DNA of 64,000 bases, taken from positions 62,001 to 126,000 of the forward strand of contig JAAFIG010000001.1 in assembly GCA_013298595.1 (NCBI GenBank), written 5' to 3'. A program made the translations under genes and the position numbers. Origin of the DNA: Deinococcales bacterium. Lineage in GTDB: Bacteria; Deinococcota; Deinococci; Deinococcales; JAAFIG01. The notes beneath the pieces were generated by a model, which was not told the DNA's origin, made no database searches, and was given only the letters and a program-made list of their open reading frames with translations. Shown here one piece after another: positions 7,451 to 14,655 of the stretch (the stretch's first letter is position 1; every line of letters begins with the position of its first letter).

Positions 7451-8731
7451 TTAAGGTTTTAATTTTTTAAGTTCAGTTCGTAATTTTATCAGCGCTTGGG
7501 TTTGAACTGTGTTTGGGTTTGAACTTAAATTCTTGGCTTCAAATGGGTCGGCTTGTACGTCATAGAACTCCTCTCGAGCATCCGCAAAGCGAATCAATTT
7601 ATATTGTGCATCTCGGATGGCTTGGGCTTCTATTATTGCGCCTTCTTGTTGCACCGTATTTGCCGCCGTTTTAAAAACTTCTGTGTAGGCATAGGCTCGA
7701 GTTAGTGACTTTCCTTGCAACGCTGGTTGTAAATTTTGTCCGTCTGAATTGCTCAATTTTGCGCCTGTGATGTTGGCAATGGTAGCAGTCACGTCCACAC
7801 CATTGACTAAACCACTGGCTCGGGTGTTGGCTTGTCCTGCCCCTGAAATAATCAGTGGAACAGCAACCCCACCTTGGTAAACACTGCCTTTGGCTCGAGT
7901 GCGATCCGTTGTAATTTGGGTCACTTGGGCTGGTGTGCCATTATCGCCCATGAAAATAACCATGGTGTTTTTCTGATCTATACTCTCGAGTAAACGCCCC
8001 ATTTCGGCATCGAGTGCTTCAGCAGCCGCGAAGTAATAGGCTTGTGGATTGCCGCGAATATCGGCAACAGAACCCGTTAAACTTTGATTGCTGATAAGAT
8101 TTTTTGGTGGCAAATGAAACGGTGAGTGCGGTGCAGTGTACGCCAACCATAAAAACCAAGGTTGCTTCTGTTGCTTGACCCAATTCACAGCTAAGTCGGT
8201 AAAAACAGTGGTTGCATACCGTTCGACTGTTGAAACTGTGCCGTTATTAACCAGCGGGAAAGAATAATAATTCATTAACGATCCCTCGAGAAACCCAGCG
8301 TAATACGGCACGCCCATCTTGGCAGGATGCGTGCTGTCATTGCGAGCAGCCACGTGCCATTTTCCGATCACGGCGCTCGAGTACACACCTTGTTGATTTA
8401 AAGCATCAAAAATTGTTGGTTGAGTTTCGTTGAGCACATCGCCAACCGAGCCGACTTGGGTTCTAAAACCATACTTGCCAGTTAAAACCGTCGCTCGAGT
8501 TGGAGTACAAGTTGGATTAACCCAAGCGTTATCAAAAACAACCCCATTGGCACAGAGCCTCTCGAGGTTTGGCATTTTGGGTTTGTTCTTACCAACGGTG
8601 TAACACGGACTGGCATCAATACCAAAATCATCTGCAATGACCAGCAGCACATTGGGCAGTGTATTTTGTGAAACCGAAGTGGCACTAAAAGTCAGTAGCA
8701 ATACCGTTAGAGCAAGTATAGGACGAATCAT
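7451..8731 (-). CDS. Secreted type I sulfatase (arylsulfatase family)
   Basis: The 426-residue protein has a signal peptide (hydrophobic residues ~4-20). The sulfatase N-terminal metal site is NVLLVIADDFGIDA, with two adjacent Asp ligands. The formylglycine motif is CTPTRA, with Cys75 as the residue converted by a maturase; the C-x-P-x-R core is intact. Further motifs include GKWHVAAR, LAYTAPHSPFHLP and FMGDNGTP (Asp-Asn metal ligands). The C-terminal subdomain is present, so it looks complete and active. It would hydrolyse sulfate esters outside the cytoplasm. AAGGAG lies upstream of ATG. No formylglycine-generating enzyme is encoded in the window. Confidence 0.9.
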   Translation of the reverse strand: MIRPILALTVLLLTFSATSVSQNTLPNVLLVIADDFGIDASPCYTVGKNKPKMPNLERLCANGVVFDNAWVNPTCTPTRATVLTGKYGFRTQVGSVGDVLNETQPTIFDALNQQGVYSSAVIGKWHVAARNDSTHPAKMGVPYYAGFLEGSLMNYYSFPLVNNGTVSTVERYATTVFTDLAVNWVKQQKQPWFLWLAYTAPHSPFHLPPKNLISNQSLTGSVADIRGNPQAYYFAAAEALDAEMGRLLESIDQKNTMVIFMGDNGTPAQVTQITTDRTRAKGSVYQGGVAVPLIISGAGQANTRASGLVNGVDVTATIANITGAKLSNSDGQNLQPALQGKSLTRAYAYTEVFKTAANTVQQEGAIIEAQAIRDAQYKLIRFADAREEFYDVQADPFEAKNLSSNPNTVQTQALIKLRTELKKLKP

Positions 8732-8931
8732 TTTTTTACTCCTTTTGGCACTGTTTGGGGTATTTTCCTCTCTTGAGTTGCGAATGCCAATATCGTCTCG
8801 AGGAAAACCACAGTTTTAGAGCCACCAGAATTTTAATGGATACGAACATTCCAAAAACAAAAATTCTTCTTTGAATTTGCATATTTCTTCAGGCGTATTT
8901 GCACATAAGTCCTCGTATTGTTGACCAACCA

Positions 8932-8948
8932 CAGGTTCTTGCAACCTG
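8932..8948 (+). promoter_or_regulatory. Inverted repeat upstream of the YHYH gene
   Basis: CAGGTT (8932-8937) and AACCTG (8943-8948) flank a 5-base centre, four bases before the AGGAGG that serves the gene at 8964. It could be an operator or an mRNA hairpin next to the ribosome-binding site. The rest of 8732-8931 shows only the sulfatase ribosome-binding site. Confidence 0.35.
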
Positions 8949-8963
8949 AAGGCAGGAGGTTTT

Positions 8964-9902
8964 ATGAATCGGTTGATAAGATTAGGTGGTTTAGCTGCAC
9001 TGGCTTTAATGGCGTGTGCGCCAGCAGGAACAACAGCAGCAACCTCGGGTACGGCTGGGGTACTGTGCGATTACAGCCAGAGCGTGATGAACGATAGTGC
9101 TTCGGTAAATGCCCTCAGTACGGTTAAATGGTCTTGTACCATCACTTCAAGGGTTCTAACAGGCAATGGCATTCCAGATCACGCGGTGGGAACATTTCCC
9201 AATCCTAACAATCCAAATAAAATTTCAGCCCAAAATGTTTCTGCCACGTACACCCTAGCGCCAGAGCAAACCACAACTTCTACGACCTTGGGTGGTCCTC
9301 GAGGTGCATTGGGGTATATGCTCAACGGTGTCAAACTTGACCCAGATACGGGCGGTAGCTGCAACGATGCTGGTGATAACTGCACATTGAATGGCAATGT
9401 TGGTCAATGGCGTATGGAAGCCCTTGGAGGAACATCCTTTAACTTTGGTACGGACAGCAACACTGCTCATGTGCAACCAAGTGGCGAGTACCATTACCAC
9501 GGACTCCCAGAAGGTTACTTGGCTAAATTAAACAAAGGTCAAGCCATGACCCTGATTGGTTGGGCAGCCGATGGATTCCCAATTTACGGGCGTTACGGCT
9601 ACACCACTGCAACCGATGCGACCTCGAGTATCAAAGTCATGAAAGGCAGTTACCGCACCAAAGCCACCCCAGATGCCAACCGCCCTGCAACCACTTTGTA
9701 CGCAATGGGTACGTTTAAGAACGACTGGGAGTACGTGGCTGGTCTAAGCGAACTTGACGAATGCAATGGGCGTACTGGTGTCACCCCAGAATTCCCCAAT
9801 GGCACGTACCACTACTATGCCACTGATACCTACCCATTCTTGCAGCGCTGCGTCAAAGGTAAAGTCGTCAGTACAGGCAATCCACCGCCTCCTGGACGGT
9901 AA
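8964..9902 (+). CDS. YHYH-domain lipoprotein
   Basis: The 312-residue protein starts with a lipoprotein signal (LALMACAPAG; Cys ~18). The YHYH domain is recognised by GEYHYHGLPEGYLAKL, by WAADGFPIYGRYGY, and by C-terminal DECNGRTGVTPEFPNGTYHYYATDTYPFLQRC. Six or more Cys suggest disulfide bonds. The tail is Pro/Gly-rich. YHYH proteins are extracytoplasmic and of unproven function; the His-rich motif suggests metal binding. AGGAGG lies seven bases before ATG. It is the first gene of a five-gene co-directional run and is paralogous to the gene at 11053. Confidence 0.85.
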   Translation: MNRLIRLGGLAALALMACAPAGTTAATSGTAGVLCDYSQSVMNDSASVNALSTVKWSCTITSRVLTGNGIPDHAVGTFPNPNNPNKISAQNVSATYTLAPEQTTTSTTLGGPRGALGYMLNGVKLDPDTGGSCNDAGDNCTLNGNVGQWRMEALGGTSFNFGTDSNTAHVQPSGEYHYHGLPEGYLAKLNKGQAMTLIGWAADGFPIYGRYGYTTATDATSSIKVMKGSYRTKATPDANRPATTLYAMGTFKNDWEYVAGLSELDECNGRTGVTPEFPNGTYHYYATDTYPFLQRCVKGKVVSTGNPPPPGR

Positions 9903-9905
9903 ATT

Positions 9906-11003
9906 ATGACGTTTATCCGTTCACTTCTCGCCCTGCTTTTGACAGCAGGGCTATTTGGCACTGCATCAGCTCATTTGATGGTGGCACAAAAAGGCACGTT
10001 GAACATCTCGGGAAATGGGGCTTATCTGTTGGTTTCCATTCCCACCTCAGGACTCGAGAAGATAGATGATGACACTGATGGTTTGTTATCAACTCGAGAA
10101 CTGAGTCTGCATACCGAAAGTATCAAACAGCAAATTCAAGCGCGTTTACAACTCAGCGATACCGATGGTTTGCGTCCACTCGAGGGACTGATGCTGACCC
10201 TCTCACCAGAAGATGCAAAAGAGGGACAACCTGCCGATCAACTCGTGGTCATGGGTCGATTTGCGCTGGCAGACTCGAATAAACCATTGTCGTTTCAAAC
10301 CAGTTTGTGGGGCAAAAAAGAAACTGAGCAATCCTTGGGTTTAACCATCACCAAGAACCTCAAACAAGAAGAATTGTTGATGCTAACCCCAGAACACCCG
10401 ACAGGGAAATTATACGAACCTGCTCTGAATGTGTTTGTCTCATTTTTACAACATGGTATTGAACACGTTCTGAGTGGATTGGATCATCTTTTGTTTTTGC
10501 TGGTTGTCATTGCCACAGGTTGGGGTTGGAAACAAATCTTGTCTGCCCTAAGTATTTTTACAGTTGGTCATACCATCAGCCTGATGACTGTGGTTTACAG
10601 TGGAATCACTTTCCCAGAAAACATTGTTGAACCTGCCATTGCTGCAACCATTATTGGATTAGCCTTATATGACTTATGGAAAAGCCGCTCGAGTTCAGTG
10701 CAAACTTCTCGAGGACTGCGTTACGGTTTGGTTTTTGGTTGCTCGTTAATTCATGGCTTAGGATTGGGTGGCGCACTGACTTCACTGGGCATCAATCCAG
10801 CCCAACAAGGCGCAACGCTTCTAGGCTTTAACTTAGGCATTGAAATTGCCCAAGTTGGTGTGGCAGTGCTGGCAATTCTTGGATTGGCTTTGCTACAAAA
10901 AATGTTTGGTGATCGCAGTGTGCAAACAGCCTCAACGCTGGCAACCCTGAGCGCAGTTGTCATGGGTGGCATCTGGTTTATTGAACGTGTGATGTTCTCC
11001 TAA
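9906..11003 (+). CDS. HupE/UreJ-like membrane protein with N-terminal exported domain
   Basis: The 365-residue protein has a signal peptide (…LLLTAGLFGTASA-H). An extracytoplasmic domain of ~130 residues follows, with Asp-rich EF-hand-like stretches (DDDTDGLLSTREL, SDTDGLRPLEG). Residues ~165-365 form a six- to seven-helix membrane domain with HGIEHVLSGLDHLLFLL, FTVGHTISL and SLIHGLGLGGAL. These conserved His residues mark the HupE/UreJ_2 family, linked to nickel or other metal transport in some members. Only three bases separate it from the upstream YHYH gene, so the two are surely co-transcribed. The substrate is unknown. Confidence 0.8.
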   Translation: MTFIRSLLALLLTAGLFGTASAHLMVAQKGTLNISGNGAYLLVSIPTSGLEKIDDDTDGLLSTRELSLHTESIKQQIQARLQLSDTDGLRPLEGLMLTLSPEDAKEGQPADQLVVMGRFALADSNKPLSFQTSLWGKKETEQSLGLTITKNLKQEELLMLTPEHPTGKLYEPALNVFVSFLQHGIEHVLSGLDHLLFLLVVIATGWGWKQILSALSIFTVGHTISLMTVVYSGITFPENIVEPAIAATIIGLALYDLWKSRSSSVQTSRGLRYGLVFGCSLIHGLGLGGALTSLGINPAQQGATLLGFNLGIEIAQVGVAVLAILGLALLQKMFGDRSVQTASTLATLSAVVMGGIWFIERVMFS

Positions 11004-11052
11004 AGGGTAACGCGTTTTAGGCTCATCCTCAATCTGCTCAAATCGGAGATTT

Positions 11053-12030
11053 ATGAATAATGCAACAAAATTTTTTGGCTGCACCGTGGTCGCTTTGACT
11101 GCTTTAGCAGTCACCACCAACTCGAGTCATAACACTGTTCTTGCACAAACCAGCAATACCACCAGTACAGCAGGTGTGTTATGTAAGCTCAGTATTAACG
11201 AATTTAACTCGAGTGCTTCGATCAAAAAAACCAGCACATCCAAATGGACTTGTTCTGCCACTGAACGTTTACTGACTGCCAATGGCATTCCAAACCATGC
11301 TGTTGGGACGTTTCCAAATGCCAATAATCCAAATACCATTGCGGAAGTCAAGGTTTCGGCTAAGTTCGCCTTAAAACCCGTATTAACCACCACCGCCACC
11401 ACCCTTGGCGGTCCTCGAGGCGCAATTGCTTATGCCCTGAATGGTGTGAAATTTGACCCTGACACGGGCGGAACTTGTGATGATACTGGCTCGAGTTGCA
11501 GTGCTGCTGGTGGCACAGGCAATTGGCGAATGGAAGCACTTGGACAGAAATCATTTAATTTTGGCACAGACAGCAATGGCGCTCATGTTCAACCAGACGG
11601 TGAGTACCATTATCATGGCATCCCGGAAGATTACTTGGCTAAATTAAACAAAGGCAAAACCATGACCTTGATTGCTTGGGCAGCCGATGGTTTCCCAATT
11701 TATGCGCGGTATGGGTACACCAAAGCCGCCAATGCCAAATCTGCGATTAAAGTCATCAAAGGCAGTTACCGCACCAAAGCCAAAGCAGATGCGAACCGTC
11801 CTGCAACCAACCTCTACCCAATGGGAACATTTAAGCAAGATTGGGAATATGTTAAAGGTTCAGGTGATTTAGACGAATGCAATGGTCGTACAGGAGTTAC
11901 CCCAGAATTCCCCAAAGGGATTTATCATTACTACGCCACCGATACCTACCCATTTTTGCAGCGTTGTGTCAAAGGCAAAGTCACGGTGGCTGCGGGTGGT
12001 CCACCTCCTGGTGGTATGCCCCCAAGATGA
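11053..12030 (+). CDS. YHYH-domain secreted protein (paralog)
   Basis: The 325-residue protein is a close paralog of the gene at 8964. It shares the GEYHYHGIPEDYLAKL, WAADGFPIYARYGY and DECNGRTGVTPEFPKGIYHYYATDTYPFLQRC blocks and the Cys pattern. The exported N terminus differs: a conventional signal peptide ending VLA-Q and no lipobox Cys at the right place. So one copy is probably membrane-anchored and the other released. The C-terminal tail is Pro/Gly-rich. It lies 49 bases after the HupE-like gene and 22 bases before the response regulator. Duplication of the gene on either side of the transporter suggests a functional unit. Confidence 0.85.
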   Translation: MNNATKFFGCTVVALTALAVTTNSSHNTVLAQTSNTTSTAGVLCKLSINEFNSSASIKKTSTSKWTCSATERLLTANGIPNHAVGTFPNANNPNTIAEVKVSAKFALKPVLTTTATTLGGPRGAIAYALNGVKFDPDTGGTCDDTGSSCSAAGGTGNWRMEALGQKSFNFGTDSNGAHVQPDGEYHYHGIPEDYLAKLNKGKTMTLIAWAADGFPIYARYGYTKAANAKSAIKVIKGSYRTKAKADANRPATNLYPMGTFKQDWEYVKGSGDLDECNGRTGVTPEFPKGIYHYYATDTYPFLQRCVKGKVTVAAGGPPPGGMPPR

Positions 12031-12052
12031 TAAACTAAGGAGTGATGTCCGC

Positions 12053-12739
12053 TTGAGTGCTTCAGAACTCATTTTAATCGTCGAAGACGAACCGCGTATT
12101 GCTGACCTACTCGAGCGTGGTTTGCAAACAGCTGGCTACCGCACCGAACGCGCCAATTCTGGTAAGCGAGCGCTTGAGCTTTGGCGGGCAGCCCGTCCAC
12201 AACTGGTATTGCTGGACATTATGATTCCCGCCCCAGATGGTCTCGAGGTACTAAAAACCATTCGACGCGAATCCGATATTCCGATTCTCATTTTAAGTGC
12301 CAAAGTCGAAGAAATTGATCGCTTACTTGGCTTGGAATTTGGCGCAGATGATTATATTATTAAACCTTTCAGTCCTCGAGAAGTGCTGCTGCGTGTCAAA
12401 ACCGTGTTGCGCCGCGTCTCAAAAACCGCTCCAAAAGAGCGCCCTCGAGTGCAAATAGGCGACCTGAGTTTGGATTTAGAATCCTTTGTGGCGCATTGCG
12501 GCAGCGAAGAAATGCAGCTCACCCGCACACACTTTCATTTGCTGGCGGTGCTTGCCAGTCGCCCAGGACGGGTTTTTAGTCGGCTCGAGTTACTGGATGG
12601 CATCAGTGTGCAGAACCTCGATGAGCGCACCATAGACACCCACATCCGCAACCTGCGTTCACGCATGGGAACTTGTGGCGATTTACTGCAAACCGTGCGT
12701 GGCGTTGGTTATCGGCTCGGGTCTGGCAGTGAGAACTGA
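12053..12739 (+). CDS. OmpR-family response regulator
   Basis: The ~228-residue protein has a receiver domain (LILIVEDEPRIADLL; phospho-acceptor Asp in VLLDIMIPAPDG; Lys in DDYIIKPFSP) and a C-terminal winged helix (LTRTHFHLLAVLASRPGRVFSRLELLDGI … RTIDTHIRNLRSRM). The open frame runs far upstream into the YHYH gene, so I start at TTG 12053, which follows TAAGGAG. An out-of-frame four-codon ORF (ATG at 12044) ends over this TTG. It overlaps the putative operon of YHYH and HupE-like genes and precedes its kinase by one base, forming a classic two-component pair. Confidence 0.9.
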   Translation: MSASELILIVEDEPRIADLLERGLQTAGYRTERANSGKRALELWRAARPQLVLLDIMIPAPDGLEVLKTIRRESDIPILILSAKVEEIDRLLGLEFGADDYIIKPFSPREVLLRVKTVLRRVSKTAPKERPRVQIGDLSLDLESFVAHCGSEEMQLTRTHFHLLAVLASRPGRVFSRLELLDGISVQNLDERTIDTHIRNLRSRMGTCGDLLQTVRGVGYRLGSGSEN

Positions 12740-12740
12740 T

Positions 12741-13847
12741 ATGCGTTTATTTCCGCGTTTTGTACTGGCATTTGTGGTGGTGGCATTTATTGCTGCTTTC
12801 ACTGCGTCTTGGCTGAGTGAACAAGCGGCTCGAGGGCGAATTCGTATCGCAACACCTGAAATTTCTGGGACTGGGTTTAACTTCCCGCGCATTGTCCCAG
12901 AAGCCGAAGCCCCCAAAGGAGCGGCACGGTTGCTCGTCAGTTTGCAAGCTTCGCAGGTTGGCGCAACGATTATTGCGCTCAGTTTAGCTTTTTTGATTGG
13001 GGCTATATTGGCTTCACGGCTCGTCAAACCGATTCGTGGTTTAACCGAAATCAACCGCCGTTACTTGCGTGGCGAACGACATTTACGTTACACCAATCAA
13101 GGCAGTGACGAATTGCACGAACTCGGCATGACCTTTAACCTGATGGCAGATCAAATCGAAAAAGAACAACAACAACACAAGCAACTGGTCGCCGATGTCG
13201 CCCACGAATTACGCACACCATTAACAGTACTAAAAGGCGAACTCGAGTACATCCAAGATGGCATCACACCAACTTCGCCACAAGTGATTCAGCGCCTGAG
13301 TGAAGAAGTGGATTTACTGGTGCGTTTAGTTGGTGATTTGCGTTTACTTTCTTTAAGTGACTCGGGCGGTCTCGAGTTTAACTTTGTTGAATTGGATTTA
13401 ACCGAACTACTGCAAAACGCGGCTCGAGCTTTTGCCCAAGCCGCCAAGCAAAAACAATGCAGCATTGTTGTAACTGGTGAAGCTGCCCTGATTCGGGTTG
13501 ACCGCGAACGAATGCAGCAAGTGCTGTACAACCTGCTGGACAATGCCTTGAAGCACACTCGAGAAGCCACAGAAATTCGGTGCGAAGTGCAGAACAAACC
13601 AAATGAAATTATGGTGCAAATCCGAGACCACGGGGTTGGGATCGCAGAAGCCGACCTCGAGCGGGTCTTTTTGCGTTTATACCGCACTGACAGCAGCCGC
13701 ACCCGCCAAGATGGGGGCAGTGGGTTAGGGTTAGCCATAGTCAAAACCTTGATCGAAGCGCACAATGGGCATATCCAAGCCGAGAATCACCCTGAAGGCG
13801 GCGCAGATTTTATTTTCTCATTGCCAAAATCTCGAGCAGGGAGTTAA
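12741..13847 (+). CDS. Sensor histidine kinase
   Basis: The 368-residue protein has a first membrane helix at ~5-25, a short periplasmic loop of only ~45 residues, and a second helix at ~70-95. HAMP, HisKA (VAHELRTPLTVLKGELEY, phospho-His) and HATPase_c follow, the last with an N box (NLLDNALKHT), a G1 box (DHGVGIAEADL) and a G2 box (GGSGLGLAIVKTLI). All catalytic motifs are present. The tiny sensor loop suggests that it detects something at the membrane or through a partner, and the neighbouring YHYH or HupE-like proteins are candidates. ATG 12741 begins one base after the regulator stop. Confidence 0.92.
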   Translation: MRLFPRFVLAFVVVAFIAAFTASWLSEQAARGRIRIATPEISGTGFNFPRIVPEAEAPKGAARLLVSLQASQVGATIIALSLAFLIGAILASRLVKPIRGLTEINRRYLRGERHLRYTNQGSDELHELGMTFNLMADQIEKEQQQHKQLVADVAHELRTPLTVLKGELEYIQDGITPTSPQVIQRLSEEVDLLVRLVGDLRLLSLSDSGGLEFNFVELDLTELLQNAARAFAQAAKQKQCSIVVTGEAALIRVDRERMQQVLYNLLDNALKHTREATEIRCEVQNKPNEIMVQIRDHGVGIAEADLERVFLRLYRTDSSRTRQDGGSGLGLAIVKTLIEAHNGHIQAENHPEGGADFIFSLPKSRAGS

Positions 13848-13890: not shown

Positions 13891-14655
13891 TTAAGGCGCA
13901 CAAGTAACAGGTTCAATCCCCGTGGCATAACGCAAGCCCACTAACAGCGACGCACGAAAAGTAGGATCAGTAAACATCGCTTTGCTATGACCAAGACCCG
14001 TGTACCACGCACGCCCACTCTCGAGGTCACGACACCAGATGATTGGGTGGTCTGCACCCATTGTGCCGCCTTGATAAGTGCGTTCGTCAAGCGTAGCCAG
14101 CACACGCACAGTTCCACGGGGATTCGTGCGGAAGTTATACAACTCATCGCGCACACGCCAGCCATCGCTTGGAATCGAACGTGAAAGCGGATGGTCGCTG
14201 TCGGCGCTCACCACGGTATCCTGAAGACCATTGGGATGGTTTTTGAAGTACGCACCTACCAGTTGCCCGTACCATGCCCAGTTGTACTCTGTATCAGAAG
14301 CCGAGTGGATGCCCAACCATCCGCCCCCTGTTTTAACGAAGCGTTCAAGCGCACTTTGCTGTGTGTCATTGAGAACATCGCCAGTGGTCAGCGCAAACAC
14401 AACCGCGCGGTATTGGCGCAAGTTATTGTCAGTGAACACAGCCGCATCCTCGGTTGTGGTTATGTCCAAGCCGTCGCGCATAGCAAGTTCTTTGATGGCG
14501 TTTACAGCATCTGGGATTGAATCATGCCGAAAGCCAGCCGTTTTGGTAAATACAAGTACCGCTCCTGTTGTTTGCTTTTGCGCTGCCACACATGCAATCA
14601 GAACTGCACCAGCCACACAGAGTACCAATAAACGCCAAGAGCGAGTAAGTCTCAT
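13891..14655 (-). CDS. ThuA-like domain protein, exported
   Basis: The 254-residue protein has a signal peptide or lipobox-like N terminus (LLVLCVAGAVLIAC). A ThuA-like (class I glutamine-amidotransferase-like) fold follows: VLVFTKTAGFRHDSIPDAV, VVFALTTGDVLND, FVKTGGGWLGIHSASDTEY, FKNHPNG, DHPLSRSIP and WYTGLGHSKAMF. ThuA domains occur in secreted proteins linked to sugar metabolism. The founding ThuA acts in trehalose use. Catalysis has not been established for most. TAGACT lies six bases before ATG (leaderless). It is convergent with the histidine kinase gene. Confidence 0.85.
   Translation of the reverse strand: MRLTRSWRLLVLCVAGAVLIACVAAQKQTTGAVLVFTKTAGFRHDSIPDAVNAIKELAMRDGLDITTTEDAAVFTDNNLRQYRAVVFALTTGDVLNDTQQSALERFVKTGGGWLGIHSASDTEYNWAWYGQLVGAYFKNHPNGLQDTVVSADSDHPLSRSIPSDGWRVRDELYNFRTNPRGTVRVLATLDERTYQGGTMGADHPIIWCRDLESGRAWYTGLGHSKAMFTDPTFRASLLVGLRYATGIEPVTCAP

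Follow-up and report, generated by a model that had tools for sequence, protein, structure and literature searches.

YHYH proteins of a Deinococcales bacterium and their association with an anglerase-HupE fusion, a sulfatase and a two-component system

Introduction

Ang-1 was described in 2025 as an 'anglerase', a domain that binds Cu or Ni and may feed the permease that follows it (PMC12537917). Its Cu-loaded structure (9GCE) is that of the Ang-1 domain of a HupE/UreJ-2 protein, RbAng-1a, and the HupE family consists of known Ni transporters (PMC12537917 and references therein). The neighbours listed for Ang-1 in that paper do not include YHYH genes, and YHYH is not mentioned in its text. The YHYH family (PF14240) has been reported in diatoms and phages; for the YHYH of phage tails, a Zn-dependent hydrolase has been predicted (PMC7824862). 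A literature search turned up two papers with the term 'YHYH domain' and one that names the Pfam family. Here we describe a locus in a 64,000-nucleotide stretch of a Deinococcales genome (contig JAAFIG010000001.1; this whole stretch is referred to as the window) where two genes for YHYH proteins, YHYH1 and YHYH2, enclose the gene for an anglerase-HupE fusion, with a two-component system (TCS) downstream and a divergent sulfatase gene upstream. YHYH genes are recurrently found beside, or fused with, a metal catcher or one particular sulfatase, and this is the first testable clue to the function of the family. One YHYH branch is tied to the newly described anglerase, another to a rare sulfatase subfamily, up to gene fusion. 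With this, an orphan family gains concrete questions (which metal, which chaperone, which substrate), and the anglerase family is widened to EF-hand-bearing and stand-alone forms.

The explanation we prefer, for which we judge the case evenly balanced, is an envelope module in which an exported YHYH metalloprotein is supplied with metal by the anglerase, works with the sulfatase and is locally regulated. Beyond the cytoplasmic membrane, the lipoprotein YHYH1 and the secreted YHYH2 would most likely act as metal-dependent enzymes or otherwise contain a metal site. In the HupE fusion, the anglerase domain has a predicted N-terminal His and an EF-hand of the Ca type and would pick up a transition metal, most likely Cu or Ni by analogy to Ang-1. 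That metal would then serve to metallate YHYH in the periplasm and, where a permease is fused, would also be taken up. The sulfatase would join YHYH in catalysis, and the two would probably share one extracellular substrate, a sulfated compound or a related ester. The local TCS would control the unit, in the window through a native short-loop kinase rather than a YHYH-specific sensor. Of all this, the genes present, their recurrent adjacency and fusion, the domains and the conserved His1 and EF-hand are observed; the identity of the metal, the way it travels, an enzymatic role of YHYH, the substrate and control by the TCS are inferences.

Searches and Samples

Families were assigned with the Pfam gathering cut-offs (25 bits for PF14240, 24.5 bits for PF13795 and 25 bits for PF00884). 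A search of public genomes yielded 79 loci, or 65 after dereplication; some lie on contigs of metagenome-assembled genomes and are possibly misbinned. Independent samples consisted of 369 gammaproteobacterial and 395 Bacteroidia genomes. Signal peptides and lipoboxes were judged by eye from the sequence. Locus handles (L) and genome handles (G) are given where they are needed for identification.

The Conserved Partner of YHYH

In 47 of the 65 dereplicated loci, YHYH directly adjoins an Ang (anglerase domain) or Ang-HupE gene on the same strand, frequently with overlaps of 4 bp. An earlier note on this DNA had proposed that the locus combines metal capture, uptake and sensing, and the co-occurrence of YHYH with HupE and TCS genes that such a unit would predict was indeed found in other genomes, in several orders and orientations. 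Burkholderiales, sphingomonads and the window have the Ang domain as part of a HupE fusion. Alteromonadales, Thiothrix and other gammaproteobacteria export it on its own, as a protein of about 180 residues. (A short gammaproteobacterial match to 'HupE' was considered as a permease domain; by Pfam and sequence it is the Ang domain alone.) In the Pseudocolwellia genome G069, Ang is matched twice and PF13795 is missing entirely. Thus the YHYH-Ang pair is the core and the permease is optional: the conserved partner of YHYH is the exported Ang domain, not the permease. The idea of a single unit for capture, uptake and sensing therefore fits only the permease-fused version. An Ang or HupE gene adjoins YHYH in 4 of the 20 YHYH-carrying genomes among the gammaproteobacteria sampled, so the link belongs to a branch rather than to YHYH genes at large.

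The window HupE protein passes PF13795 by a wide margin and resembles RbAng-1a in its architecture: a signal peptide, then a predicted N-terminal His, then an Ang-1-like domain fused to the permease. Cleavage is predicted between ASA and H, and in an alignment of 43 relatives the column of this predicted His1 is His in 42. The AlphaFold2 model (mean pLDDT, the predicted local distance difference test, 92.5) gives the exported domain the beta-sandwich of RbAng-1a with helices between strands 2 and 3. Its best structural match is 9GCE (Z 11.1, root mean square deviation 3.6, 135 residues), at a sequence identity of 13%; compared with the PDB as a single sequence the HupE protein found no match, and the link to 9GCE emerged by structure alone. 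The next structural matches, at about 10% identity, are the zinc-binding periplasmic proteins ZrgA of V. cholerae (Z 10.7) and PA4063 of P. aeruginosa (Z 9.8), which share the fold of the exported domain; unlike the window protein, their matched structures have no permease fusion. For this domain, then, the metal capture proposed earlier is backed by a predicted fold that matches Cu/Ni-binding Ang-1 and the Zn-binding proteins (PMC12537917).

The window branch differs from RbAng-1a in its low identity, its tight coupling to YHYH, its permease-free stand-alone forms and a conserved EF-hand. The Ang profile matches the EF-hands of calmodulin, and two loci (L007, L113) score slightly below the Pfam cut-off for an EF-hand. 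The earlier note had seen EF-hand-like loops in the window protein. One of them, DDDTDGLLSTRE, is a good copy present in nearly all of the 43 relatives; a second DTDG stretch is not conserved among them. Taken together, sequence and model indicate that the window HupE protein is an anglerase fusion with a predicted N-terminal His, an Ang-1 fold and a PF13795 permease.

If YHYH were simply a periplasmic metal binder that hands its metal to Ang-HupE for uptake, with the TCS sensing scarcity or excess, the locus would serve pure metal acquisition, as the earlier note had read it. The tight YHYH-Ang-HupE coupling is what such a route would produce, as are a metal-binding Ang fold, the many invariant His of YHYH and a permease from a family of known Ni transporters (PMC12537917). 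YHYH-Ang pairs without a permease, including one carrier genome without any PF13795 gene, are hard to accommodate, a YHYH-sulfatase fusion is odd for a scavenger, and the loop of the kinase offers no metal ligands. We consider pure acquisition rather doubtful.

Other genes lie near YHYH in some lineages. In a Colwellia locus (L112:7461-8272), the TCS and the YHYH-Ang pair belong to one same-strand run, and between them come the genes for a small exported protein with a double EF-hand and for an unknown protein. A GDSL-like exported hydrolase occurs downstream of YHYH in L027, L035, L064 and L066, with no HupE found nearby in L027, L064 and L066. Upstream of YHYH in Burkholderiales (L006, L021, L026, L031, L035, L045, L064) lies the gene for a small exported protein that contains Cys and has no Pfam match.

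Association with a Sulfatase Subfamily

Divergent to YHYH1, and overlooked by the earlier note, lies a sulfatase gene that belongs to a YHYH-tied subfamily. Its product passes PF00884 and has the C-x-P-x-R signature of type I (formylglycine) sulfatases, in the form CTPTR; its YHYH-tied relatives are 41-47% identical. Among the sampled gammaproteobacteria, the subfamily is found in only 5 genomes, all of them among the 20 with YHYH. In two (G364, G063), sulfatase and YHYH form one polypeptide in a single open reading frame, and in two others (G259, G208) the genes are adjacent. In the fifth (G120), the sulfatase gene meets the contig end inside sequence that by eye looks like the beginning of a YHYH region, probably a cut fusion. 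In Bacteroidia, the sulfatase is present in 26 of the 395 genomes and neighbours YHYH in 6 (G511, G547, G731, G777, G816, G829). One further adjacency was found in L046. In G063, G120 and G259, the sulfatase-linked YHYH and the Ang/HupE-linked YHYH are at separate places in the genome; in the window, sulfatase and Ang-HupE are both beside YHYH at a single place.

Unlike type I sulfatases, the five YHYH-linked gammaproteobacterial relatives of the window enzyme (L106, L107, L108, L109, L114) have C-x-T-x-R instead of the formylglycine signature, which raises the question of how, or whether, these sulfatases mature.

A bolder version of the module would make YHYH a new class of exported metalloenzyme and the N-terminal-His/EF-hand anglerase its dedicated metallochaperone, co-made in stoichiometric amounts and with an optional permease. 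The substrates of this enzyme would be sulfated, and it would act on them in tandem with, or fused to, an atypical sulfatase (one with C-x-T-x-R in the proteobacterial pairs). We offer this version tentatively and think it somewhat unlikely.

The YHYH Proteins

Both window copies are far above the PF14240 cut-off and are about 68-71% identical to each other; they are the only YHYH genes of this genome. In YHYH1, the sequence LMAC resembles a lipobox (the congener G001 has LIAC), and YHYH2 has a plain signal peptide. The description of two paralogues in the earlier note, one a lipoprotein and one secreted, agrees with these features. Paired YHYH genes recur: in four Burkholderiales loci (L006, L018, L019, L045), Ang-HupE follows YHYH genes that stand in tandem and come from two old clades. 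In an alignment of 71 YHYH sequences H82, D173, H178, H186, H188, D212, D263 and D274 are invariant, and both window copies keep all of them. To judge by this alignment, the set appears enzyme-like. Like the phage-tail YHYH (PMC7824862), the window proteins are members of PF14240 with conserved His and Asp; unlike it, they are cellular, exported and linked to Ang and a sulfatase. Function is a prediction in both.

It is conceivable that YHYH is a metal-dependent hydrolase whose targets are polymers of the envelope or outside the cell, as has been predicted for phage tails, with the metal genes merely supplying its cofactor and the sulfatase stripping sulfate from the same polymer. The phage-tail prediction (PMC7824862), the YHYH-sulfatase fusion and the enzyme-like invariant residues all agree with such a role. 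The YHYH model, however, matches the fold of no hydrolase, and the activity is a prediction only. A hydrolase by itself is also just the enzyme half of the preferred module and leaves the tight Ang coupling unexplained. We regard it as unlikely to be the whole account.

Several results weigh against the module as we prefer it. The AlphaFold2 model of YHYH2 is confident (pLDDT 88.7), and a Foldseek comparison with solved structures gave nothing better than E 2; the best VIA-align match reached a Z of only 2.4, with no hydrolase fold among the matches. Sequence searches of the PDB, both single and profile, returned nothing meaningful and no solved relative. Because there is neither a solved relative nor a fold match, the active site of YHYH is a guess. 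YHYH is present in 155 of the 395 Bacteroidia genomes (~39% of the sample), and most of these genes are not beside a sulfatase of this subfamily. In proteobacteria, the YHYH linked to the sulfatase is usually a different paralogue from the one linked to Ang, and in several loci YHYH has neither an Ang/HupE nor a sulfatase partner. The sulfatase was not found in the congener G001 and is therefore not obligatory. Finally, loci that were found with a single query are not independent of one another.

Local Regulation

Histidine kinase genes are found within 3 kb of the YHYH unit in 17 of the 65 loci, vs 3 in the flanks further out (binomial p about 5e-4), and at least four arrangements of the genes occur. 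Regulation from nearby genes thus recurs among YHYH units, and the window kinase is a native recruit: it groups with kinases of its own order, and order relatives that carry such short-loop kinases have no YHYH gene. The proteobacterial kinases beside YHYH are BaeS-like, with sensor loops of 144-190 aa, and the YHYH-linked TCS pairs tested from these bacteria are BaeSR-like at scores below the curated cut-offs. For the window regulator and kinase, the nearest NCBIfam models are likewise those of the envelope-stress system BaeSR, at 217 bits for BaeR and 244 bits for BaeS, short of the cut-offs of 380 and 500/603. Unlike BaeS, the window kinase has no sensor domain and belongs to the family of its own order. 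The heavy-metal regulator/sensor pair TIGR01387/TIGR01386 was also considered and rejected (160 and 192 bits, cut-offs 279 and 293).

The very small sensor loop that the earlier note saw in the kinase is real, at about 38 aa. Its two further suggestions for the kinase fared less well. His-rich extracytoplasmic motifs were thought to be shared across the unit; the kinase drops out of that set, and 'His-rich sensing' fails because the kinase belongs to the short-loop family of its order and its loop has no His, Cys or Met. A short-sensor kinase specific to YHYH finds no support, given the same kinase family in order relatives without YHYH and the long loops of the YHYH-linked proteobacterial kinases. 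Of the metal capture, uptake and sensing idea as a whole, the co-occurrence and the metal capture by the HupE N-terminal domain are supported. It is possible that signals reach the window kinase indirectly, via HupE or YHYH. In another family of the order (L099:8453-9205), a short-loop kinase/regulator pair adjoins a DUF2202 protein, a lead to the usual target of this kinase family.

Organization and Origin of the Locus

The features of the locus are listed in Table 1. YHYH1, the HupE/UreJ-2 protein, YHYH2, an OmpR-type regulator and a histidine kinase are encoded head-to-tail (8964-13847), separated in order by 3, 49, 22 and 1 bases. Gene calls and Pfam confirm the five genes, their order and the last two gaps as given in the earlier note. 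The genes that flank the run, for the sulfatase and a ThuA protein, both point the opposite way. Scans for promoters and terminators inside the cluster gave no excess over shuffled sequence, with no terminator above chance. ThuA was considered as a member of the module and set aside; a single distant match was all that the loci contained, though it is beside the kinase in G001 too.

Table 1. Coordinates of genes and sequence features in the window.
Feature	Position	Strand	Basis or remark
Exported sulfatase	7451-8731	-	PF00884, 146 bits; signature C-T-P-T-R; divergent to YHYH1
Putative control region of YHYH1	8865-8972	+	Probable promoter/regulatory stretch ahead of YHYH1, into its first codons; about 108 bp, 80% identical to G001
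YHYH1	8964-9902	+	PF14240, 229 bits; probable lipoprotein
Anglerase-HupE	9906-11003	+	Signal peptide, Ang-1-like domain, HupE_UreJ_2 permease; PF13795, 118.6 bits
Codon of residue 23, predicted N-terminal His1	9972-9974	+	Predicted cleavage after ASA; alignment of 43 relatives
EF-hand loop (residues 54-66), within exported domain	10065-10103	+	Conserved in nearly all 43 relatives
HX5DH permease signature HVLSGLDH	10464-10487	+	Sequence; conserved in permease-bearing relatives
YHYH2	11053-12030	+	PF14240, 226 bits; secreted paralogue
OmpR-family response regulator	12053-12739	+	TTG start with AAGGAG upstream; nearest NCBIfam BaeR, below cut-off
Histidine kinase	12741-13847	+	Short loop; nearest NCBIfam BaeS, below cut-off
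Kinase extracytoplasmic loop	12816-12929	+	About 38 aa; no His/Cys/Met
ThuA protein	13891-14655	-	Flanks kinase, opposite orientation to five-gene run

The congener G001 retains YHYH, HupE, the regulator and the kinase, with ThuA and sucCD beyond a contig break, and lacks YHYH2. A gap of 305 bp with a repeat-like insert separates its HupE and response regulator genes. The stretch ahead of YHYH1 is a likely control region because it is conserved in G001 while the genes further upstream differ.

In the YHYH tree, both window copies fall among beta/gammaproteobacterial sequences; YHYH1 pairs with the gene of the congener, and YHYH2 has no settled place. The nearest PDB entries to the window SucD are 3ufx and 1oi7, both Thermus proteins. 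From this difference in affinity, it is likely that YHYH entered a Deinococcota-like lineage by lateral transfer. A YHYH-HupE pair acquired in this way might have landed by chance beside an unrelated TCS and sulfatase, and the grouping of the window kinase with its own order, the proteobacterial position of the YHYH copies and the missing sulfatase of G001 would all follow. Chance is difficult to reconcile with a TCS adjacency that is kept in two species and recurs elsewhere, or with a sulfatase subfamily whose link to YHYH extends to two other phyla. We consider a chance neighbourhood improbable.

Some minor features of these genomes were also recorded. In G001, a REP/MITE-like (repetitive extragenic palindromic/miniature inverted-repeat transposable element) repeat stretch occupies L096:9649-9953, between HupE and the response regulator, the place taken by YHYH2 in the window, and Tn7-like transposition genes (TnsA/B/C/TniQ-like by eye) lie upstream of the YHYH-HupE cluster (L096:1-4853). 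The window (1-64000) contains 374 evenly spread copies of the palindrome CTCGAG, vs 13 expected from base composition (28-fold). This palindrome is 6-25-fold over-represented in loci of the same order (L096, L097, L098-L100, L102, L103, L105), in the manner of the cyanobacterial HIP1 element.

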